DNA of 60,073 nucleotides from Fragilaria crotonensis. Its lineage: Eukaryota; Bacillariophyta; Fragilariophyceae; Fragilariales; Fragilariaceae. The notes below the pieces were generated by a model. The model saw only the letters and a list, made by a program, of their open reading frames with translations. It did no database searches and had not been told where the DNA came from. Below are positions 26,714 to 41,150 of the stretch, piece after piece (the first letter of the stretch is position 1; every line of letters starts with the position of its first letter). The stretch lies in contig JAKSYS010000371.1 in assembly GCA_022925895.1 (NCBI GenBank), positions 1 through 60,073 on the forward strand. Direction: 5' to 3'. The position numbers and the translations under genes were made by a program.

Positions 26714-26822
26714 GGTGGAATTGGTTGCGGATGTTGACTCACGTCGTGAAGGCCGTTTTATAGACTCGCTCGGGAATATGAAGTGATCTTTTTTCAACAC
26801 CCTCTCCTTTTTATAAATGAGA

Positions 26823-26854
26823 TCCGATTAGGTTTCACCAATTTGACGTCAGCA
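26823..26854 (+). repeat. Left 32-bp terminal inverted repeat of the MULE
   Basis: Begins TCCGATTAGGTTTCACC and ends TTGACGTCAGCA. It is a perfect inverse of 39271-39302; similarity stops at once outside. It contains the palindrome TGACGTCA at 26844-26851. Confidence 0.95.
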
Positions 26855-27185
26855 CCCACGTCACAGTAATAAACTACAGTGAGTCCTCCTGTAGAAGATT
26901 TTTGAAGACATCGGAAATTTGAATGGCTGACAAAACACGGAATCTTTGTTGTTGACTTCTGTCGGCGCTTTTCCTAACGCGCATGTCAACCCTTTGTCAT
27001 GCCAGAAAGATAACTGCTACATATCTCCTTCTATCAGTGATTCATGTGTTTCCCTTGTTTTGAATCACTCGAACTTATTACATTACTTTGTATTCGATTA
27101 CAACCTAGTAGGGTTGCAAATCTCCTTGAATACAAGTACACTTTTCTTCTTAATCAACACCAACAGAACTTTCTTTCTGTACAAT

Positions 27186-27925
27186 TTGATCTTCAAATAG
27201 TCTCGAATGGACAAGTAACAGTGTGTCAGTATGATGACTATTTTGTGTCACAATTCGATCTTCAAATAGTCACGCGAATGAACAAGTAACAGTATGCCAG
27301 TAAGAAGACGACTATTTGGTGTGCAATTTCGATCTTCAAATAGTCACGAATGAACAAGTAACAGTATGTCAGTACGATGCGACTATTTGGTGTACAAATT
27401 TCGATCTTCAAATAGTCGCGAATGGACAAGTAACAGTATGACAGTAAGAAGACGACTATTTGGTGTACGAATTTCGATCTTCAAATAGTCAGGAATGAAC
27501 AAGTAACAGTATGTCAGTACGATGCGACTATTTGGTGTACAAATTTCGATCTTCAAATAGTCGCGAATGGACAAGTAACAGTATGACAGTAAGAAGACGA
27601 CTATTTGGTGTCGAATTCGATCTTCAAATAGTCAGGAATGAACAAGTAACAGTATGTCAGCACGATGCGACTATTTGGTGTACAAATTTCGATCTTCAAA
27701 TAGTCGCGAATGGACAAGTAACAGTATGACAGTAAGAAGACGACTATTTGGTGTCGTTTCGATCTTCAAATAGTCACGAATGAACAAGTAACAGTATGAC
27801 AGTACGATAGCGACTATATGGTGTACAATTTTGATCTTCAAATAGTCACGAATGAACAAGTAACACTATGACAGTAAGAAGACGACTATTTGGTGTACAA
27901 ATTTTGACCTTCAAATAGGCTACTA
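27186..27925 (+). repeat. Hairpin satellite array 1 (about 11 units of ~72 bp)
   Basis: Each unit has a hairpin with perfect 9-bp arms GACTATTTG and CAAATAGTC around GTGTACGAATTTCGATCTT, then a spacer of the type GAATGGACAAGTAACAGTAT. Units alternate between two variants, one with AAGAAGACGA and one with ACGATGCGA before the hairpin. The array follows the 3' end of the GNAT/C48 cargo gene. Confidence 0.9.
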
Positions 27926-27954
27926 CATACAGCATGTACGACTACGATGAACTC

Positions 27955-30900
27955 ATTTCTTGCATTCTTCATCCGAAGTACTGTAATTGCCGTCCCGAAT
28001 TAATGTTTGCTTCCAAACACTTTGTCTATTGAAACACACGTTGCACCACCAAGTGTTTTCGAGCTTCTCTTTCATTGCAACACATGGAACATACATGCTT
28101 ACATTTCCGACACGAGTGCTTTGAAGGCTTATTGCATTCAATACAAGCATCATCCTCGTCACCAGCTTTCTTACTTCCTGTCATCCGCTCTTTGAAGGCT
28201 TATTGCATTCAATACAAGCATCATCCTCGTCACCAGCTTTCAAACTTCCTGTCATCCGCTGTTTTGAAGGTTGCTTGCATTCAATGCCAGCATCATTGTC
28301 GTCACCAGCTTTCCTCTTTCCGTCACCGTACTTTGTTTCCCAAAGTACACTGATTTCCTTAGACGATCCCGAACCTCTTCCTTACTTTTTCTGTGTTGAC
28401 ACCTTTCCAAACGTTTTCCTCTTTATTGACAAAGATGTAACCTTTTTCCGCATCTCCTCTAGCACTTCACCTGCAATATTGTCCTTAGCGCTTTCTGTCG
28501 ACTTTCAAACGTGGCATCTGCAGCTCTTCGGATTATCCGACGGAAAGCCATGTTTGGTGGATGTCCCTTTGGTTCATCGCGTTTACGTACTATACCATTT
28601 GGCGGTAGAGATGTACTTTCAAATGGACCTGGTCCGGCCTCCAATTCATTTATTGACGGCGTCATGCCCTCCCCTTCTTTTCGTTACACACACGTTTCAT
28701 TCGCGATCTAATATACGCCATTCCACCATCGTATGTTTTTTCCTTCCACCCTTTTTTTCTGTCATCTCGAGGAAACGAAATCCCTCCTTTTTAGAGTTGT
28801 GTAAATGGTACGCTGCACCTCATATTTTTCTGCCTGATTAGCTGCTGACAAGTGCATTTTCTTGAAGTCCAATGTGCGATCAAGGTACGGAATGCATTTG
28901 CGGTGCCCCTTCCCACACAGTACATCCTTTTTCCCAGGTTTGGCGATTATCGAAACACTTTCATTTTCCTTTTCAAAATTATCGCGTATAAACTTCAACG
29001 CATTTTCGACAAATGGCAATGGAGACTTCGTGTGAAAGAGCAAGGATTTGCCAACACAGATTCTTCTTCTCATCTTCTGATGCAGCATATTCAAGTCCTT
29101 CTTTAAACTTGAAATAAATGTAGCAATATGCTGTATAGACAATGGCACAAATTCACTTCCTGCGAGCGCCGTGGTCGTATGTGCTCCATCAGGCATCTTT
29201 TCGGTGTCTTGAATCTTTCTGGTGATGTATGATCTTGTTCCTGTACTGCCTCTGCTTCACCCTTTCGTGCTGGCGACTTCGTCAACGATGGATCATCCTG
29301 CTTTCGCTGGCCTAGACCACCCGACTGCTCTTCACCACTATCCGTCTTCCCTTTTTCTTTGTTTGTCGAGGCTTTCGCGAAGTCTTTCGCAACCGCTTCG
29401 CTACATCATCATTATTCATCTGGCACAAATCTGTTTCCCTGCCAAGCAACACTCTTCTTTCGACAAAGGTTGCCACTGCAATATCTTGGCTAAATCAGGA
29501 AACGCATGTCGTGGTCCGGGCATCGTTAGTTTCCAACGAAAGCGACCGTTCTATCCCCTTGCTGGGACGAAGATATTTTTGTACTCATGAGCTTCTTCTC
29601 GAACCGACCCAAAGTTGCTGCTTGCTATTCTGTCAATCAGTTGAAACAAGCTCACGTACACGTCATGCAAATAGTGAGCAAATTTTCGTGTTGATGTGGG
29701 AATGTTCCTGCCCATGCCCTTGACATTGTCATTCCTGTCAAAAGTGATGTCACCTTTCACATTCCCACTCGTGTCGAATGTGACGTCGTGCACCATGACA
29801 CAAAAATCGCGGATGAAAATCAATGATTTTAAACCACTTTGCGCCACATCCTTTGACGTTTCCTGAATTAGAATGTAATCTGGCGGTAAACTCAACGGTC
29901 GGAAGCGCCCTTCTCGATGTCACATGTCTCATTGTTCTTGTCAGTGACGACACAACCAAAATTAACGCTTTGCCGTGTGAAACCGACGTAAAACGAATGC
30001 ATGTTGAAAAACCATGGTGCAACAACCTTGTCTTTCCATGGTGAGCTTTCCTTTCTTTTCTTCTTTTGGTTTTCGTGCTTTTGCATTTGGATCATTCTCA
30101 GGACTGAGTATGAAGTGCACCAATTTGAGGAAGAACCGGCAAATTGGCGGTGGGTCAGAACGGCGACGTTTTCCAGTTGGATCAAACAAAAAATATCCAC
30201 ATTTTGTATCGTTATCATTGTTCCCAGTTTTTCCACAATTCACCGCTACGAAAACAGTCCATGAACAATCTTCATCCTCTTGTGCAGGAATGACAATAAA
30301 CGGCTTCGTGAGGAGATCCTTGTGTTGTATAATGAACTCCACCACCAGAATTGTTGCCTCCATAAACCTCTTTTGGTCAATCTCGTAATGAAAGATGTGG
30401 TTTACAAACTGTCTTCTCTCTGTATCGGTTTTTAGGTCGCGAACCGAAGATGCAACGTTCCGTCCTTCAATGAAGGATGTAAAAAGGCTCTCCATTGTTG
30501 ACACCTCAGTCATGATCTTACAAGGAATGATGGTCAGGGTCGACCAAATTTCAGCTTTACAATACCGCTGCAGCCATCCCAGAGCAATGTCCACAAAGTC
30601 TGGAGAAAGAGCGTCACCTTTGCGCGTAAGGCAACGATCTATCCAAGTCAGACGAGCACTTGGACCTTGGAATAGGTATTTTTCCATTATCGAGTTCTTC
30701 GGATGGAAGGCCTTGTCATCCCAAAATTCACCCGAGTAACAATCATAAGTTGGTGTACAAAATGTTGCCTCTTCGTATGTTAAGTTTCCGGGAAGAAGGC
30801 ATACACGGATGGACAATCAATGGTGTTGTCATTGGGATTGTTGAACAACCTTTCAATACTATCTGGTTTCTGGATTCTTGTGGGAAGGCAAAATATTCAC

Positions 30901-31498
30901 GTGTAAGGCAAATCGTCAACCACTTCAAATCGTTGCTGAATCCGAGATAGTCCTTGAGTGGACTATCATCAACCTCATTGACAAAACAGTCTCTCAAAAC
31001 TTTAGGAAATGCTTCAGTCCCTTCAGCCATTTCGGCAAAGTTGCGTCTTGAATAATAACCCCATGCCACTTTGTTCGCGGTCGGATTTGCTTTCAAATAA
31101 ACATTTACTTCATCAACACCCACCCTACACCTTACAACTTGATGCATAATCGAAAGCAAAAAAGTTGCCATTCCGTTGGCCTGATAGTCAACCTTTGTTG
31201 CCAAAAAAAGAACCAAAACAGCGTTCTCTCGTTGTACAAACGTTATAGCGCATATAGCAGTGGGTTTCTCCTTTTCCCATATACTAAGTGTCTCGCCCTT
31301 ACCAAGGCAAGATGACAGTGACTTCCGATCTGAATGGTCGTCGAATATAACATGATACAATTCATAAACAGTATCACTCGCATTGTATTCATCTTCTCTT
31401 CCAACAAAGTGAAGAATACGATATTCCTGTAGGAACGTTGGTAATTGATCACGTGGAATGCGGTGGTGCCATTTCATCATCTCAATCATCGTCTTCAT
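27955..31498 (-). pseudogene. MULE cargo gene 1: GNAT-like + C48/Ulp1-like + DUF6824-like + Cys-rich tail, decayed
   Basis: ATG 31498 (MKTMIEMMKWHHRIP). Residues about 70-170 read as a GNAT acetyltransferase core (AICAITFVQRENAVLVLFLA, DYQANGMATFLLS, GYYSRRNFAEM). After a one-base shift near 30785 comes a region like C48 peptidases of the Ulp1 type: LTWIDRCLTRKGDALSPDF, KPFIVIPAQ, then CSWTVFVAVN and GYFLFDPTGK. The usual catalytic His before Trp is a Ser here, so protease activity is doubtful. Further on (28762-29196) KKDVLCGKGH recalls the diatom DUF6824 motif. The tail has spaced cysteines (CIECNKPSK, CRKCKHVCSMCC) with a repeated segment. Several frameshifts (near 30785, 30040, 29890, 29400, 29280) split it. 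One long gene is inferred from collinear fragments; it could be two. Confidence 0.6.
28118..28325 (-). repeat. Three tandem copies of a ~72-bp coding repeat (Cys-x2-Cys peptide)
   Basis: The copies start near 28121, 28192 and 28264. On the minus strand each encodes KAGDEDDACIECNKPSK or a variant. Spacings are 71 and 72 bp, so one copy has lost a base relative to the frame. Confidence 0.75.
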
Positions 31499-31671
31499 TA
31501 CTGGGGTTCACATCCGTCAAATGGATCATCGTCATGCGTACTGGTTGCCTTCGGCGCTCTTTGTCTTCGGGGCATACTGAGGAGATGAGTTGTTTAAGAC
31601 TTGACGACCTTCAACATATACAAATCAGGTGCAGATGCTCACAGTGTCGATTGCACTAATTGTGTACAGAT

Positions 31672-32655
31672 TCTGATCTTCAAATAGTCTTCTTAGACGA
31701 AGTAACCCGTAATTTCGATCTTCAAATAGTCACGAATGGACAAGTAACAGTATGACGGTACGAAGACGACTATTTGGTGTACAATTTCGATCTTCAAATA
31801 GTCGCGAATGGACAAGTAACAGTATGACGGTACGAAGACGACTATTTGGTGTACAATTTCGATCTTCAAATAGTCACGAATGGACAAGTAACAGTATGTC
31901 AGTACGATGACGACTATTTGGTGTACGAATTTCGATCTTCAAATAGTCACGAATGGACAAGTAACAGTATGTCAGTACGATGACGACTATTTGGTGTACG
32001 AATTTCGATCTTCAAATAGTCACGAATGGACAAGTAACAGTATGTCAGTACGATGACGACTATTTGGTGTACGAATTTTGATCTTCAAATAGTCACGAAT
32101 GGACAAGTAACAGTATGTCAGTACGATGACGACTATTTGGTGTACGATTTCGATCTTCAAATAGTCGCGAATGGACAAGTAACAGTATGTCAGTATGATG
32201 ACGACTATTTGGTGTACGAATTTTGATCTTCAAATAGTCACGAATGGACAAGTAACAGTATGTCAGTACGATGACGACTATTTGGTGTACGAATTTGATC
32301 TTCAAATAGTCGCGAATGGACAAGTAACAGTATGACAGTACGATGACGACTATTTGGTGTACGAATTTGATCTTCAAATAGTCACGAATGGACAAGTAAC
32401 AGTATGTCAGTACGATGACGACTATTTGGTGTACGAATTTCGATCTTCAAATAGTCACGAATGGACAAGTAACAGTATGTCAGTACGATGACGACTATTT
32501 GGTGTACGAATTTGATCTTCAAATAGTCACGAATGGACAAGTAACAGTATGACAGTACGATGACGACTATTTGGTGTAATTTTGATCTTCAAATAGTCAC
32601 GAATGGACAAGTAACAGTATGACAGTATGATGACGACTATTTGGTGTACGAATTT
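31672..32655 (+). repeat. Hairpin satellite array 2 (about 14 units of ~72 bp)
   Basis: Same unit and orientation as array 1: arms GACTATTTG / CAAATAGTC, spacer CACGAATGGACAAGTAACAG. More uniform than array 1. It lies between the 5' ends of two divergent cargo genes, so it occupies their shared upstream region. Confidence 0.9.
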
Positions 32656-32816
32656 TGTTCTTTGACGAGTGTTCTGAGTGATGTCGCCCTTGAGCACTGA
32701 CGTACTTCTGACACATGCGACGTGACAGAAAGTATAAACTCTGATCACATTTTTCCTCCTTCGATTCCCTTGCCCAACGCTGTTGCGAATGGTTATCAAA
32801 CGGCAGAAGCAACTTG

Positions 32817-33058
32817 GAAACCATCATGAGGACGTCAAAACAGGTCACTGTTATCTGTGACTCGGGGCACAGTAACAGCAGTTCCAACCTTGACGTCACA
32901 AAAAGCATGATGAGGAGTACGGTTGTGGAATGCAAATGTAGCAACGAGGAAACCATCATGAGGACGTCAAAACAGGTCACTGTTATCTGTGACTCGGGGC
33001 ACAGTAACAGCAGTTCCAACCTTGACGTCACAAAAAGCATGATGAGGAGTACGGTTGT
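32817..33058 (+). repeat. 132-bp direct repeat (1.8 copies) with TGACGTCA
   Basis: Copy 1 is 32817-32948; copy 2 starts at 32949 and is identical until 33058. Each copy has TGACGTCA (32891-32898 and 33023-33030), the same palindrome as in the TIRs. The unit is a multiple of 3 and an ORF crosses it, but its place upstream of a TATA box favours a regulatory repeat. Confidence 0.8.
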
Positions 33059-33117
33059 ACAGAATGATACCACAAGTGAGAACATTGGCAAGACTGGAAA
33101 ACGAGGTTTTCAACATG

Positions 33118-33125
33118 TATATAAA
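33118..33125 (+). promoter_or_regulatory. TATA-box-like TATATAAA upstream of cargo gene 2
   Basis: TATATAAA lies 60 bp after the second TGACGTCA repeat and just before the coding-like stretch starting near 33137. Inferred from position only. Confidence 0.4.
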
Positions 33126-33154
33126 TCAAGGAAAAGTCAAGCATCACGACGCAG

Positions 33155-34150
33155 GAAGCATACAAGAAGGCAATAGAAAATGGCAAGCCAAAGAGTGTTT
33201 ATGCAAAGAAGCAATTATTTGAAGAAGAAAAGGCTAGATAGTTTGATGCAAGTTTCGTCGTCCCATGAGCATTCACTGGGCAAAACACTGTTGCAGAACA
33301 GTTGTAAACCTTATTCTATAGTGGAGCCGATATGGAAAACTCAACGAGACTTCGCAAATGCATAGGTGATGCGCACATGCTGTTTGCAATCAATGATCTT
33401 AAAGTCATTGACACTATGTCTGGTGCCCGTTTGATTTTACCGAGTGGGGATAACGTATTCACTTTGATCCCACGTCCGTATGTTGTTGAAAAACTTACAA
33501 GGGTTAACCAAACCATCGAGGCACTTCATGCACTTGAGGATGCAGAATCCAAAGCAGAAGTGCGTGGAATTAAACGAGTACCTGTTGCGGAAGATAATGG
33601 CAAATACACCACTGTTGGGTTAAAGCCAAACCGTGGTTCAACTGGTATTATCGAGTCTTGGCCGAAAACATTAAGTGACTGGAGCAAGACACAAATCCGT
33701 GACTTAATGAAGAGGTGTCATGAAGTTGCAAAGGATTCATTCCAGGGAATGATCTTCGAGGACTCCGTAGTGCCCAATGGTTTGCCGATTGGCCAAGTAT
33801 GGTAGGTATGCCATCTGAACCAATTTGGGGTAGTCTTGCCTGTGGCAAAACTATTGTTTGAATTCGCATACCGATGAGGATTTTTCTATTCCTTGACAAC
33901 CATTATTTCGCAACATGGATTGCAACGGGTCGGTTTGATAAATACCGATTGGATGCCGACGTAACGAACTACTTTGCATTTGCAGAACAAGGGTGCCGTG
34001 GCACTGAGGCCGGGAGATATGTTACTTTTCAATCCATTGTATCAGCACTGTTTGACATCCCGCACATTGCAATATCAAGAGAAAGATGTGTTTTGTGTGT
34101 CGTTATACCTGAAGACAGCAGTTGTTGGAGGAAACAATAATACCAAATAG
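33155..34150 (+). pseudogene. MULE cargo gene 2: protein with beta-helix/2OG-oxygenase-like C-terminus, decayed
   Basis: One frame reads coherently from about 33140 (QEAYKKAIENGKPKSVYAKK) into MENSTRLRKCIGDAHMLFA (33332), but is interrupted by TAG, TGA and TAA in the same frame. A longer open part, 33332-33805, includes KVIDTMSGARLILPSGDNVF and DLMKRCHEVAKDSF. After frame changes near 33797 and 33985 the C-terminus reads ALRPGDMLLFNPLYQHC, VFCVSLYLKTAVVGGNNN. From memory this ending is common in algal proteins with a double-stranded beta-helix resembling 2OG-Fe(II) oxygenases; the iron ligands are not secure here. The stop codon TAG (34148-34150) comes from the first unit of array 3. The start is unknown; the gene is surely broken. 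Confidence 0.5.
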
Positions 34151-35600
34151 TCGCCGTCGTACTGTACTGGTGATACTCGTACGTACGACTATTTGAAGAT
34201 CAATTCGATCACCAAATAGTCGCCATTGTACTGTACTGGTGGTTCACTGTGATGACTATTTGAAGATCGATTTCGATCACCAATAGTCACCGTCGTACTG
34301 TACTGGTGATACTGTACTGTGACGACTATTTGAAGATCGAATTTCGATCACCAAATAGTCACCGTCGTACTGTACTGGTGGTATCGTATTGTGATGACTA
34401 TTTGAAGATCAATTTCGATCACCAAATAGTCACCGTCGACTGTACTGGTGGTACTCACTGTGATGACTATTTGAAGATCGATTTGATCACCAAATAGTCA
34501 CCTTGTACTGTACTGGTGATACCAGTGACGACTATTTGAAGATCAATTTCGATCACCAAATAGTCACCGTCGTACTGTACTGGTAGTACTCGTACTGTGA
34601 TGACTATTTGAAGATCGAATTTCGATCACCAAATAGTCGCCATTGTACTGTACTGGTGGTACTCGTACTGTGACGACTATTTGAAGATCGAATTACGATC
34701 ACCAAATAGTCGCCATTGTACTGTACTGGTGATACTCGTACTGTGACGACTATTTGAAGATCAATTTGATCACCAAATAGTCGCCATTGTACTGTACTGG
34801 TGATACTCGTACTGTGACGACTATTTGAAGATCGAATTTCGATCACCAAATAGTCGCCATTGTACTGTACTGGTGATACGTGCTGTGACGACTATTTGAA
34901 GATCGATTTCGATCACCAAATAGTCACCGTCGTACTGTACTGGTGGTACTCGTACTGATGACTATTTGAAGATCAATTTCGATCACCAAATAGTCGCCAT
35001 TGTACTGTACTGGTGATACTCGTACTGTGACGACTATTTGAAGATCGAATTTCGATCACCAAATAGTCGCCATTGTACTGTACTGGTGATATCAGTGTGA
35101 CTATTTGAAGATCAATTTCGATCACCAAATAGTCGCCATTGTACTGTACTTGTGATACTCGTACTGTGATGACTATTTGAAGATCGAATTTCGATCACCA
35201 AATAGTCACCTTCGTACTGTACTTGTGATACTCGTACTGTGATGACTATTTGAAGATCGAATTTCGATCACCAAATAGTCACCTTCGTACTGTACTTGTG
35301 ATACTCGTACTGTGATGACTATTTGAAGATCGAATTTCGATCACCAAATAGTCCCCATCCTAGTCATGATGTCGAACAAGAACGAAAGTCTAAGTCGATC
35401 ACCAAATAGTCGCCATTGTACTGTACTGGTGATACTCGTACTGTGATGACTATTTGAAGATCGAATTTCGATCACCAAATAGTCACCTTCGTACTGTACT
35501 GGTGATACTCGTACTGTGATGACTATTTGAAGATCGAATTTCGATCACCAAATAGTCCCCATCCTAGTCATGATGTCGAACAAGAACGAAAGTCTAAGTC
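34143..35600 (+). repeat. Hairpin satellite array 3 (about 21 units of ~72 bp), hairpin inverted relative to arrays 1 and 2
   Basis: The unit hairpin is GACTATTTG AAGATCGAATTTCGATCAC CAAATAGTC, close to the reverse complement of the array 1/2 hairpin and with a stronger inner palindrome (GATCGAATTTCGATC). The spacer differs entirely: TCGTACTGTACTGGTGATAC and variants. It sits between the convergent 3' ends of cargo gene 2 and the transposase. Near the right end about 200 bp are duplicated: the terminal unit CCCCATCCTAGTCATGATG appears near 35352 and again near 35557. Confidence 0.9.
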
Positions 35601-35631
35601 AACATTGTTATTAATTCTAAATGTACTACTT

Positions 35632-38600
35632 TTAAAAACTCCATGATGAGACATATGTTTTGCACACCTTGCCAACAGGACACCCCGAAACTAGGGACCC
35701 TTTGGGTGGTGGTTTCTCAGAAGCCATGTTGGCTTTCTCGGTGAAGATAATCTTGTCGAGTGCCTCCTCAACAAGAAGACCTCTCTCTTGTGGGCTTTTT
35801 GAGGCATCAACAAGACTAACTAGTTCCTTTGCTCTTGGCATAATGCTGTCGTACGCATTGTAACGTTCCAATTCGGATACGTCTTCATGGTGAAGAGCAC
35901 GTGATCCAAAATCAATGCAGTCAGTTTCTAAACTCGTAGATTCCATGAGGATGTCGTCATTGTCGTCAAGATGAGTATTCGTGTGCTCAGTTTCATGACC
36001 AGCGTCGATGAGTGGTTCCTCAGGCAAGTGGATCTCTTGCGACATTGATACGGGAACAGTATTTTTGGCATTCTTCAGGGCAATCTCAACCTCATCCCTG
36101 GTGTAGTTTACGACACTGTCCAGTTTTGAGGGTTTTTGGAAAAGGGAGTCAATGGTACTTTCAGTGGCATTTCTGAATTGCTCATTTGAATTCTTCCCAC
36201 ACTTGTAGACACGATGGAATGGAGAGAAAGTATGATCGTCATTCTTTGGAATAAAGTTTGGGCCTTTGCAATCATTCTCACGTATTGATTCCAGCTTCTG
36301 CTTTATCTCTTTCTCAGTTAGTGAGCAATCACTCTCCTTCTTCATTGAGAAATAAATATATGATTTCCACCAACGTACTGAAATGTCGTGGTGACTGATG
36401 TTTGATTGCTTGCATAATACTTCTTCACATGCATCATGTGTGGGCAGATGACACCATTGCATTCGTAGTAGTTGCAGTCACACATCAGACAAACCCTGTT
36501 GTCAAAGTCTTGTGAGGTGACAGTGTACACTCTGTGGAAGCATGGAATCAAAGAATGGACATCACGGTCAACTGACCGAACAACAAGCCATTTGAAAGGG
36601 CTTGCTCTCCAAGAAGCATAGCTCGCATTGATCAAGAGCGAATTTCAACATGAACTCTGCAGGAAGGGTGACATCATTGACGGTGGGAGAGTTACTCCAG
36701 GTTGCTCTTCCAAACAGGGCACTAGCCATATATCGTTGGTATAGGTCAAATTTGTTGGAATCGGTGTCAACTTGAATTTTGACAGATTTGTCAACACCGT
36801 GCTGTGGAAGCACACAGGAAGGACCAGCTTTGATAGCATTATTTGTACCTTCGTGCCCAGAATTTGTGTTGGTCTCGGTGTCTCACCCCTTCCTCAGATA
36901 AAAGCAATAACTCTGCTCTTGTGGAATTATGTAATTGCGGATAAAGTGCAATATCTTTTCTCCACCGTCCTCCCCAAAAATTGCCTTAATAGTGTCTGAT
37001 TTCAAGTACATATGTAAAAGGGCGTAACTTCTTTGATGTTGACGATTCTTTTAGAAAAATGGTATCACAGATAACACACAGAATAAACATGTAGGTGTAC
37101 TCACATTTCGTACTCGTCTTGGAAAAGTATCCCTCGGCGCATCCAGCTGTAGATCCAGGTTTTTATTACTCTTACCTGCCTCTTGGCGGCATCATCCTTG
37201 CCTCTCCGATAACCCAAGCCTTTACAATTTCGTCGCCAGCCTTGATCAACAAGGTGCCACCCACATCGAGTACGTACTGCATTGACAAAATGTGTGGAGA
37301 TGGCATAGTCAACTTGTGTCATTTCTTGGGAATCACCGTCAGTCATGATAAGTTTCACAGCATGTAGTGATTGTGCACCAAGAAGAACAGGAATGGCTTC
37401 TTGGAATAGCCAACGGAAGAACCAAGATCGTTCATTCGGGGCAATGCACCTAACAACCACAGTCACCTTTCCATTTGAATCTTTCACAGAGAGTGTCAGC
37501 AATGGTCTGCTTTCATTGTTCGTCTCATGAGTGCCGTCAACGCATACAACTTCAGGAAAAGCGTGGAACAGGCGCCTGCCTTCTGGTAAAACCCAACAAC
37601 AGGCAATGAGTATATCCTGGTCTTCCCTTGCACCAACCGCAAGTCTGCTTTCCAAAGCATATTTCTTAAAAGTGGATGTCTCTGCCACCTCCAGAGGTAC
37701 TGGCTTCTCGTGAATAGGTGAAGTGTCATCAGTGTCATCATCAGTTGGGATAACAGAAAGGCTGGTTAGTTCACCTGATAAATCATGAGGAATGGCTTCA
37801 GTACGTGCAGCCTTTACACTGTTACCACGTAGTTCTTTTGATTTGCCATGATGATACAGACAGACATACGAGGCACCACTTTTTTTGTAAGTAACTCAAC
37901 ATATTCTCACAGGGTGAAGACTCCGATGCTGTTGTGGTAGCATGAACATTTGGGGGAAGCCATGAAGTCTTTTGCCATTTTTGTAAATCCTTGCACATAT
38001 GCCATCTGACCACGAGTAAAAATCTGACCCGTACGGGTTTTAGTAAACAGAGCCGCTTGGGCAGGCTGGATGTTGGCAACACTCATTGCAGCAACAGTTT
38101 CCAGGGTTGTAATGTCAAGAAAGCGTTTACGATTCCTTATTTCATTGGAAAGAAGAGGAGGATGGCCAGTGTGCTGATTGTTTCCAATTCCGCAAACAAG
38201 GAAAAAGCTATTATGGTCAATTCGGAGTGTGAATTTGACACGACAAGTGCAGGAGTTACCACGTAGAGTTGAATTGCGACGTTTCAATCCGATGCCAGAA
38301 CTCTTGCACCCACGGGCATTCTTCTTATCACCAGTGTAGGTGGTAACACGATAAGAATCGGTTCCAGTACTTTGGTTCGGTGTGCAGGACATTCCTCCTT
38401 CTTCTGATGAATACTGGCGGAAATTACTGCATTTCAATACGCGTTGGTCAGTCAGTAGTACATCTGTGACATTGGTTGGGGAACGCAAACCATAACCATT
38501 GGAAACAAGGGCACAATTCCCAACAGATTTGGCAGCTTGGAGTAAGTCAGTGATAAGACTATGGCCTCCTGAATCCTTTCGAAATCCACCATTGATGGGA

Positions 38601-38803
38601 TAAAGAGATGGACTGAACCGAATAATATGCTTGGAACCCTTGTACATGGAGGTAGTGTACTGAAAGAGGTCGTACTCCTTTTCCAATGATGCATTGAAAT
38701 CATCGGTTGCATGACAAAAATGACCTTTGAAAGGCAAAGAAGCAGTCCATGACATAGCCTTGAGAGCAGATAGAGTCTGGTCCACAGCATGGGGATCCTG
38801 CAT
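35632..38803 (-). pseudogene. MULE transposase with zinc finger, DDE core and SWIM finger, decayed
   Basis: ATG 38803 (MQDPHAVDQTLSALKAM). Near 38210 is a FAR1/MuDR-type finger (CTCRVKFTLR, NQHTGHPPL). The MULE DDE core lies in 37101-37688: FPEVVCVDGTHETN (first Asp), LIMTDGDSQEMTQVDYAI (second Asp), RTRCGWHLVDQG. A probable 77-nt intron starts GTGAGT at 37104 and ends near 37028. Its removal continues into YALLHMYLKSDTIKAIFG, then TGA at 36893-36895, then TNTNSGHEGTNNAIKAG, typical of MULE transposases. The SWIM finger is CDCNYYECNGVICPHM (around 36450). Frameshifts also occur near 37900, 36600 and 36400. The C-terminus (35632-36380) is acidic and of unknown fold. In this state no functional enzyme can be made. 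Confidence 0.8.
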
Positions 38804-39270
38804 CAATGGTACTTCTTGTTGTGGATGATCCTAAAGAGACCGAAACATGGGGTTGGCAACAAATTAATCGGTAGGTGGTTGCTATAGTAATGCAAGCAAA
38901 ATGACAACAGATAGAGAGCAAACAAGAGCGAAAACAGAACAAGGGCAACAAGAGAAACAAAAGCAGCAAGGAGAGCAAGAACAACAAGAGAAACAATAAT
39001 GACAGGGAGACAAAGTGCCATACCATCGTGGTCGTAAAATATCAAAATGATGAGTTTTGTGCGAGTAAACTCAAATCCACTACTGGTACCATGTTTTATA
39101 CACATCTAGACACGATCATTTTTATTTCTATTCAAACAAATGTGGAGCAGATTTATGTTCCTTATCTAGAACGTAGTTTTGCACAAGAGTTGGTTTGAAA
39201 AGAGGGCGGTGATAAAGTCAAAGAGAAAGATTCCGTGCAAGTTAAATTCCACAACTAAAGTGCTAAAAAA

Positions 39271-39302
39271 TGCTGACGTCAAATTGGTGAAACCTAATCG
39301 GA
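39271..39302 (-). repeat. Right 32-bp terminal inverted repeat of the MULE
   Basis: Begins TGCTGACGTCAAATTGG and ends CCTAATCGGA. It is the exact reverse complement of 26823-26854. It contains TGACGTCA at 39274-39281. Confidence 0.95.
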
Positions 39303-41150
39303 CCCGCCGAGTGGTGAGTTGGAAGATTTAACCTATACTACTTTCTATATTTATTGAATATATCGGACATCGGGCACGATAAGTTCTCGGCATATAAGTC
39401 ATAAAGGCACATTATTTATGGATCGGAGCTTTAAGTACAAAGTCATATAAGCACATTCTTGAAGGATCCGGGTTTTAAGTACACCTGCTTAAGCCCCATC
39501 CATGTTGTAAGTAAAAATTAACTCTGACGTGTTGTAAAGAATCCTCGTAATTAAATGAATCGACGACCACGTTTGCAGCGATGTCCATGCTATGTGCAAA
39601 GAGCATATCGGTTTCATTCAGAGAAGTCATCTCGATTGGGGGTCATTTCCCATTTGTTTCCATCTACAATTTTCAAAATCTCCCCAGAAGGAGGTTTTTT
39701 TTTGTAACCTGCTGCGCGGTTGGCGGACTGGAGTCGATTTTACGTACACAGAAAACCCACAATTTTAGAATAACTCTTGTTTGTTTGCTTTACCGAGAGT
39801 GACTTCCGGTTGTTCATTTTTTGTGCAATTGGACTCACAATTATTGTTGTAATTGTGGCACAACCTTTACCGAAGCCTGTCATCATGGAGGAGGAAGACA
39901 ATGCTATCAATTTTCAAACCAAAGCCCTGTTGTCAGTATTCCATTCTTGCCGTAAATAGAATGCTACATGATTTGGAGTTGTTGTTCCCCAGCTCCAGCA
40001 GTACTAACCCAATGTTCTCATCAGCAATTCCATTCTTTGTCTTCAATTATGCTTCTCCACAAGGCAGACTGATGTGCATGTAACAACTGCAAGCGCATTC
40101 CTAACAATAGATAACAATGCCCAGCATAGCTAGTGACAAGTCTTCTTGACATTTGTGAAGATGGAAGTCTTGATCTTCTTTCCAATATGAATTGGAATCC
40201 AGTCCCACACTAAACAGCAAGCAAGAACCCCCCTTAACAGGCAGGAACTAGTGGAACTCGCCAGCAACAAGCCCATTAGTTGTGTTGGTAGGAGTGCCAT
40301 CATCTGTTTCTGCAGTGACTGTTGCAGCAGAAAGCAAATACATTCATTTTGATGATGACGAGCTAGCTATGATCTTCTTCTATATATGTTCAGCAGGCAA
40401 CAACAACAAGCCAAATGCGGTGGTGCCCGGCAGCTGGTGAATGAATGTCACCAAAACCTCAGCAAATAGCACAACAGCCAACACATCCACCGTAACGTTT
40501 GAGACAAACATCAGCATGCAATGAAGGCACTGACAAAATGCTTGATGAATGAACAGTACCTGTCAGTGAGAATGAGTAGTCAGCTCCTTGACGAATGTGC
40601 GAGAACAGTCCAAGAAGGACAAAAGCTAGATCCAAGCAGAATCATGATTGCTTGAAAAAATATAAAGCCAGGTTTGATGTACTTCCCTCAGTAAGCAGTG
40701 ATTAGTTATGTTAACAGTAGCTAACCAGATTCATAGGTCCGGAATTTCGGCCTTCAGGTCATCAAATGGTTTTTCTGGTATCAAGGATTACAAAGCAAAA
40801 AACATGCCTTCTTTCATGATTCCCTTCTTCTTGGCACCACTTCCATAATCTGCTGGACTGCTCAATTGACGCGAACATTCAGCTTCCCCTAAATGATGAC
40901 GATACATCAGACTGCGTTAGGGTCTGCACTACTCCCATATGGAATGTATCAATTCCATGTGTTCGACTTTGTTCACCCGTTTGTAGGCCGTCATTCCACC
41001 GCCACCATGTCGTGACCACCAACGTTGGTAATTGGTACTACCAGGTACCAGGTACCAGGTACTGTACGTACTATGAGTACTGTAGTGCAAGTGTTACCTT
41101 ACGATACTGTGTACTGTAGTATTGCGCATACGATGCGCATCTATCCACTA
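39303..41150. other. Gene-poor spacer between the MULE and the TA-flanked elements
   Basis: No gene supported. At about 39400-39485 there is an imperfect double repeat (AAGTCATA, GCACATT, GATCGGAGCTTTAAGTACA versus GATCCGGGTTTTAAGTACA). The region 39580-40700 is rich in CAACAA/AGCAAC words and short ORFs without domains, perhaps old transposon remains. GTAC palindromes return at 41030-41100. Confidence 0.5.

Follow-up and report, generated by a model that had tools for sequence, protein, structure and literature searches.

A MULE-type element family of Fragilaria crotonensis with precise ends, a 6-bp target loss at most testable sites and two conserved accompanying genes

Contig JAKSYS010000371.1 of the diatom Fragilaria crotonensis (assembly GCA_022925895.1), analyzed over positions 1 to 60,073 of the forward strand (60,073 bp, hereafter the window), carries a transposable element of about 12.5 kb in which a transposase of the Mutator-like element (MULE) type stands together with two further predicted genes, here called gene 1 and gene 2, and with three tandem arrays. 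The locus raises the question of how such an element enters its target, and whether the two additional genes are chance cargo or part of its own equipment. DDE (Asp-Asp-Glu) cut-and-paste transposons are recognised and classified by their target duplications, which follow from the geometry of strand transfer. MULEs have been described with target duplications of 8–11 bp (PMC6446971). In contrast, the insertions of this element and its relatives showed precise ends, no clear duplication and, at most testable sites, an exact 6-bp loss of the target.

The first-pass annotation of the window had described perfect 32-bp terminal inverted repeats (TIRs) around a Mutator-type transposase at 26823–39302. 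The two TIRs were indeed identical and lie at these positions, whereas the element itself proved to be 3 bp longer at each end, because the outer triplets beside the TIRs were nearly fixed in the family of the window copy (family 1): RGA was found at 40 and CCC at 39 of 41 non-redundant sites. Odd end triplets were observed at two family-1 sites, C437m (right) and C505 (left), where C with a number denotes a contig. The palindrome TGACGTCA, which we take to be a CRE-like (cAMP response element-like) sequence, was conserved at the inner TIR end in family 1 and in a second family, family 2, alike.

Copies were sought in the window's own assembly (62.1 Mb, 881 contigs). The family-1 TIR gave 180 matches (91 forward and 89 reverse) at up to 3 mismatches, and the same pattern read backwards, used as a control, gave none; the first 100 of these 180 places were listed, along with 65 places for one TIR variant. 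With up to 2 mismatches allowed, the family-2 end, TCCGATTAGAATGCAAGGAAATGACGTCA, matched at 232 places and a control pattern at none; 100 of the 232 were listed, and 65 in a second listing.

Target duplications were evaluated from the flanks of these insertions. In 28 copies, the target duplication was not above mismatched controls, and a match of at least 8 of 9 flank bases was reached at none of the 41 family-1 and none of the 28 family-2 non-redundant sites (0/69). Before counting, C689 (the same locus as C387) and the repeats of other loci at C81, C137s, C376 and C753 were dropped; with C376 and C753 retained, the family-2 count would be 30 instead of 28.

The joined flanks of 74 sites (28 + 26 + 20, duplicate loci C689, C81, C137s, C376 and C753 included) were then searched for counterparts lacking the element. 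Since the search scored the best candidates, empty counterparts were read at no fewer than 17 of these sites, and 13 of the 17 carried exactly 6 bp in place of the element. The lost hexamers were CATGTA (C304), AGTATG (C143), ACTATG (C268), CATGCT (C451), ATAGGA (C40), TCGCTT (C437), GACATG (C150), ATAGGG (C416) and TATATT (C658) for family 1, and TGTAGT (C670), AGTAAG (C142), AATGCT (C270) and CCTGGT (C449) for family 2. The window element's own empty allele, found in C46, is one of the 13 and has CATGTA where the element stands; C46:64670-67479 is colinear with the window's joined 2.8-kb flanks as a single piece at 98% identity.

The same 6 bp were also present in repeat copies of the target, namely in 9 of 9 copies fetched for C268 and in 3 of 3 each for C416, C658 and C142, and the hexamer is therefore regarded as the old state of the site, not as an excision scar. 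The middle dinucleotide of the hexamer was a pyrimidine–purine (YR) step in 10 of the 13 cases, compared with 0–4 of 13 at ten other offsets. The corresponding binomial P was about 3e-4 at an assumed frequency of 0.27, for a test that was picked after the hexamers had been seen.

The supposition of a multi-copy MULE family made at first pass was borne out. Neither a TIR unique in the genome nor a general lack of the genes in other copies, both of which had been named as ways in which it might fail, was found. Among the TIR matches listed, 12 long copies besides the window's were recognised, 11 of about 12 kb and one of 9.6 kb, and with the window copy included, 11 of 13 carried all three genes in the order gene 1 (−), gene 2 (+), transposase (−). 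The remaining two were C93, with gene 2 inverted and poorly preserved, and C130, where gene 1 is missing and gene 2 likewise inverted. Gene 2 is inverted in C305 as well; in all three copies, as compared with the other long ones, the inversion perhaps arose when arrays A2 and B, which have opposite orientations, recombined. Shorter members with the same ends ranged from 0.5 to 6 kb, and members of about 160 bp resembled miniature inverted-repeat transposable elements (MITEs). Genes 1 and 2 were absent from all eight copies of 2.4–3 kb, and the arrays were kept in all six copies of this size among those listed.

The long copies were very similar. Median pairwise substitution over three gene sections was 0.22, 0.27 and 0.16% (12, 11 and 12 copies), with largest values of 0.71, 1.37 and 0.74%; C130 was left out of these figures, and C93 out of section B. 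In most copies, short indels, mostly of 1–2 bases, were commoner than substitutions, an excess which suggests uncorrected long-read errors in the assembly. At several short indels the window copy differed from every other copy, and most of its frameshifts are read as probable sequence errors; taking the majority base throughout the coding sections did not remove the frameshifts.

Some further observations concern individual copies. Copies C41 and C130 hold long extra open reading frames (ORFs) inside the element, presumably a nested insertion of a Ty1/copia-type retrotransposon. The family-1 copy C451:24573-36982 sits between both ends of a family-2 MITE, with a counterpart without it at C482. 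Matching loci on separate contigs (C387/C689, C76/C137 and C304/C46) suggest retained haplotypes, which would be useful for studying insertion polymorphism. Just outside the window element, a 44-bp unit occurs twice in tandem.

Purifying selection acts on all three genes, more weakly on gene 1 than on the transposase and gene 2, where it is strong. The ratio of nonsynonymous to synonymous substitution (dN/dS) was 0.13–0.20 for the transposase, 0.05–0.20 for gene 2 and 0.37–0.69 for gene 1. Coordinates of all features are collected in the table below.

Features of the element in the window (positions are those of the window; features marked "by motif" are candidate assignments)
Feature	Position	Strand	Description
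Whole element	26820–39305	.	12,486 bp, terminal AGA and CCC, no duplication of target sequence outside; apart from a few exceptions, the ends recur at the 41 non-redundant family-1 sites
Left TIR	26823–26854	+	32 bp
Array A1	27178–27918	.	72–73 bp unit, inverted arms CAAATAGTC/GACTATTTG; in the gap between left end and gene 1
Gene 1	27956–31575	−	about 1,200 aa, no intron needed; start codon and length inferred
Tandem repeat within gene 1	28117–28313	−	71–72 bp, near the C-terminal zinc finger; C93 without one 72-bp unit
Ulp1 catalytic-motif stretches	29800–30264	−	SW for HW (30238–30264); FDPTG, Asp kept (30172–30195); QSGLKS, no Cys (29800–29841); by motif
GNAT acetyl-CoA motif	31166–31183	−	QANGMA, by motif
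Array A2	31711–32662	.	72–73 bp dyad unit; between divergent genes 1 and 2
Gene 2	32745–34137	+	about 430 aa, HxD...H motif
Tandem duplication within gene 2	32808–33058	+	132 bp (44-aa peptide repeat); insertions here in C77 (263 bp) and C765 (132 bp)
Array B	34142–35600	.	72–73 bp dyad unit, reversed with respect to A; flanked by the 3' ends of gene 2 and transposase
Transposase gene	35635–38830	−	MULE domain, SWIM-type zinc finger; frameshifted in the window
SWIM-like zinc finger	36429–36491	−	CxC...CxH, by motif
Candidate catalytic Glu	36829–36870	−	NTNSGHEGTNNAIK, by motif
Candidate second catalytic Asp	37323–37352	−	LIMTDGDSQE, by motif
Candidate first catalytic Asp	37521–37547	−	VCVDGTHET, by motif
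Right TIR	39271–39302	−	32 bp, identical to left TIR
44-bp unit, twice in tandem	39396–39483		just outside the element

The transposase was recognised by two Pfam families within 37101–37688 (−), namely PF10551 (MULE, E 4e-14, above the cut-off) and PF21056 (ZSWIM1-3 RNaseH-like, E 2e-14), in agreement with the Mutator-type identity proposed at first pass. The residues that we take to be the catalytic Asp, Asp and Glu, as well as the putative SWIM finger, were assigned from familiar motifs. In single-ORF Pfam scans of the window, a supported match was obtained for the transposase alone, because the window copy contains short indels; the long reading frames used for the other genes came from other copies.

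Gene 1, whose frame is broken by short indels in the window, had long open frames in C183 (579 aa), C451 (961 aa) and C305 (897 aa), and combines a GNAT part, a SENP/Ulp1-fold part, DUF6824 stretches and a zinc finger in one predicted gene. The acetyltransferase-like part seen at first pass was confirmed: a profile of ten gene-1 relatives matched NAA60 and other N-acetyltransferases at E 3e-6, and the predicted C305 model (mean predicted local distance difference test score, pLDDT, 58; predicted template modelling score, pTM, 0.53; medium quality) aligned with GCN5 at Z 14.7 and 2.8 Å over 157 residues. QANGMA is presumed to be the acetyl-CoA motif according to the usual GNAT rule.

The next part of the same model aligned in VIA-align with SENP7, SENP2 and Ulp1, most clearly with SENP7 (Z 16.7, 4.3 Å, 242 residues). 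The Ulp1-like part proposed at first pass thus holds as a fold, and its catalytic residues appear to be missing. When the catalytic positions of Ulp1 were mapped by motif onto gene 1, the residue preceding the conserved Trp, His in Ulp1, was S, D, I or N in all eight aligned rows covering the position, and the Cys position was occupied by S or A in aligned relatives; C317 and C55 are the exceptions, with Cys kept. Because the catalytic His is absent from the covering relatives and the Cys position is mostly S or A, the domain is called a dead Ulp1-like domain. The C-terminal part contains two DUF6824 stretches (PF20710, 9.9e-12); the match to the FYVE_2 zinc finger at the end of the gene (0.0084) was weak and fell below the cut-off. 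DUF6824 serves as a diatom marker, and a literature search on it found no paper. The DUF6824 stretches and the weak zinc finger, like the missing duplication and the 6-bp target deletion, were absent from the first-pass annotation.

Gene 2 had open frames of 420 aa in C105 and 433 aa in C305. The HxD motif and a later His were invariant across seven gene-2 relatives, and no relative was found in IMG/VR at the settings used. Both accessory genes contain peptide tandem repeats with a variable number of units, of 132 or 135 bp in gene 2 and 71–72 bp in gene 1.

The hairpin satellites noted at first pass between the genes were recovered as the three arrays of 72–73 bp dyad units. In C388 and C860, the gene1–gene2 and gene2–transposase gaps contained arrays of 52-bp units with arms GGCGGCATT/AATGCCGCC, and in C54, which is without gene 1, arrays with arms CGACATTA/TAATGTCG flank gene 2 on either side. 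Between sister families, with two gaps compared, the dyad is thus kept and its sequence changed. Literature searches gave no description of a three-gene core or dyad arrays of this kind.

Beside family 1 and its close relatives, a translated genome search gave, among the matches listed, ten divergent gene-1 loci with 26–40% identity; a weak gene-1 fragment at C130:59231 (E 4.5e-5) was not counted among them. A divergently arranged gene 2 adjoined gene 1 at six of the ten (C388, C860, C783, C84, C592 and C258), and C388 and C860 kept the transposase as well, and thus all three genes. Neither gene 2 nor transposase was nearby at C312, C20, C317 and C55 among the matches listed. Since six of ten divergent loci keep the pair, genes 1 and 2 look like a conserved core rather than the cargo described at first pass. 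The GNAT–Ulp1-like ORFs at C317 and C55 (26% identity) stand alone, with Cys at the Ulp1 Cys position, and may possibly be a host gene or the source of gene 1.

A joint explanation of these results, to which we assign a probability of roughly 0.6, is that the window element is a recently active, young, autonomous copy within a large multi-copy family with fixed ends, and that it belongs to an unusual MULE-type lineage with a 6-bp loss through reversed stagger and with genes 1 and 2 acting against silencing. The DDE-SWIM transposase would bind the TIRs and engage a target centred on a flexible pyrimidine–purine step. The two joints made by the element ends would then lie 6 bp apart, with a stagger opposite in sense to that of ordinary MULEs, and the 6 bp would thus form flaps to be trimmed rather than gaps to be filled.

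With less certainty than for these integration steps, genes 1 and 2 may keep the element from silencing. The gene 1 protein might attach to the dyad arrays of its own element, or to SUMO by way of its putatively dead Ulp1-like fold, and acetylate histones, and gene 2 might encode an oxidising enzyme of chromatin or DNA. The accessory module would then be a self-addressed anti-silencing system like that of VANDAL/VANC, built from different proteins. The most specific form of the proposal, a DDE lineage with reversed target stagger (exact 6-bp loss) and a self-addressed de-silencing kit in which a GCN5-like/dead-SENP fusion and an oxidase-like partner would be aimed at the element's own fast-evolving dyad arrays, is offered tentatively, with the odds somewhat against it.

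Other explanations were considered for the target sites. The element could be a canonical MULE whose 8–11 bp duplications were later lost by mutation or by recombination between copies, in keeping with the general behaviour of MULEs (PMC6446971) and with the many genome copies available for recombination. This is hardly credible, as none of the 69 sites reached an 8/9 match though the long copies differ by about 0.2–0.3%, and the empty counterparts show the two flanks as parts of a single continuous locus with 6 bp in between, an outcome that copies recombining with each other would not produce. Alternatively, the transposase or another nuclease might cut both target strands twice, 6 bp apart, with the element ligated in and no strand transfer involved. 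Such a double cut would account for an exact deletion with preserved flanks; however, end joining usually gives variable ends, and here the ends of the element, like the loss of 6 bp, were mostly uniform. A YR-type preference is seen for strand transfer into bent DNA, with which the central YR step agrees, and we consider the double cut improbable.

For the accompanying genes, capture of unrelated host genes by one element, as in Pack-MULEs, would fit the solitary GNAT–Ulp1-like ORFs at C317 and C55, which make a host source possible. The same neighbours across divergent families and the purifying selection speak against chance cargo, which is very improbable. A role of genes 1 and 2 as transposition helpers instead of anti-silencing factors, with the arrays serving as transposase sites or transcription terminators, has more in its favour: mudrB is apparently required for Mutator integration (PMC6446971), array B lies between convergent 3' ends, and the 2.4–3 kb copies lack both genes, the six listed keeping their arrays. 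On the other hand, array A2 lies between divergent genes, no array would fit into the two-ended copies of about 160 bp, and the GCN5-like domain points to chromatin. A helper role is therefore judged doubtful, although it is the strongest of these alternatives.

Several observations weigh against the explanation by reversed stagger and anti-silencing genes. At one site per family, 7 of 8 flank bases matched, a frequency close to the mismatched controls (1.7% and 1.3%). Four of the 17 empty sites did not give 6 bp, namely C418 (2), C297 (about 0), C325 (2) and C119 (8), with C325 giving 6 bp if one ATGT unit differs. C40 and C449 reached 6 bp only when a one-base difference in run length or two mismatches next to the junction were allowed, the counterpart of C451 was just 89% identical, and one of three C670 counterparts was without 8 bp of flank. 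The reversed stagger is a putative mechanism, and both array binding by the products of genes 1 and 2 and their effect on silencing are postulated.

The gene predictions also call for caution. The gene-1 model is of medium quality, and its SENP fold comes from VIA-align only, because the top 50 Foldseek rows were acetyltransferases exclusively. The dN/dS of gene 1 was high (0.65–0.69) in two comparisons, C305–C451, which may include frameshifted stretches, and C388–C860, with very few differences. For gene 2, the beta-helix or 2-oxoglutarate (2OG)-like protein suggested at first pass survives as the HxD...H motif; no supported Pfam, PHROG or NCBIfam family, no other supported hidden Markov model (HMM) match and no supported solved relative was obtained, and the predicted model (pLDDT 34) was worthless. 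The gene1–gene2 pairs at C783, C84, C592 and C258 stood without a nearby transposase among the matches listed; these pairs may be moved by other transposases or have been domesticated.

Compared with the MULE superfamily as a whole, the element has both the MULE-type DDE transposase and the terminal inverted repeats, and lacks the 8–11 bp target-site duplication (TSD); because of this, it is an element with a MULE-type transposase and yet not a canonical MULE. Kaonashi elements are plant MULEs with a Ulp1-like gene. The Ulp1 fold is shared with them, here as a fold only and from a medium-quality model, whereas its fusion to GNAT and DUF6824, the absence of the catalytic His in aligned relatives (by motif) and the missing TSD set the present element apart.

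The table in PMC6446971 lists "MULE-Diatoms" as group 37, with "No TSD and not indicated", one ORF, a SWIM finger and TIRs of 123–124 bp, and the missing duplication in diatom MULEs has therefore been noted before. The present element likewise combines a MULE transposase with a SWIM finger (by motif) and no TSD; it differs by description in having three genes instead of one ORF, and ends of 32–35 bp (family 1) or about 178 bp (C54). The 6-bp target deletion is unmentioned in the group 37 passages of that paper, and no report of a target deletion turned up when the literature was searched for such deletions and for absent duplications.

In Arabidopsis, VANC proteins of VANDAL MULEs bind tandem motifs in the non-coding regions of their own family and lift methylation, and they carry tandem peptide repeats (PMC5735166). 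Extra genes on a MULE, family-specific non-coding tandem arrays and accessory proteins with tandem peptide repeats are common to both systems. Unlike VANDAL, the element studied here encodes GNAT, SENP-like, DUF6824 and HxD..H proteins and has dyad arrays and no TSD. For fungal DNA transposons encoding TET/JBP, a putative dioxygenase has been proposed to counter silencing (PMC12730594). A DNA transposon with a possible dioxygenase gene would be the common feature, whereas no MULE is among the lineages named in the abstract of that paper, and gene 2 is without a supported Pfam match.

If a MULE-type family indeed removes a fixed 6 bp of its target, the geometry of strand transfer would be reversible within one superfamily, and annotation tools relying on duplications would miss such elements. 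The many near-identical copies and their empty counterparts in this genome make the target loss directly testable. If the accessory genes and arrays work as proposed, they would represent an independent invention of transposon-borne anti-silencing.

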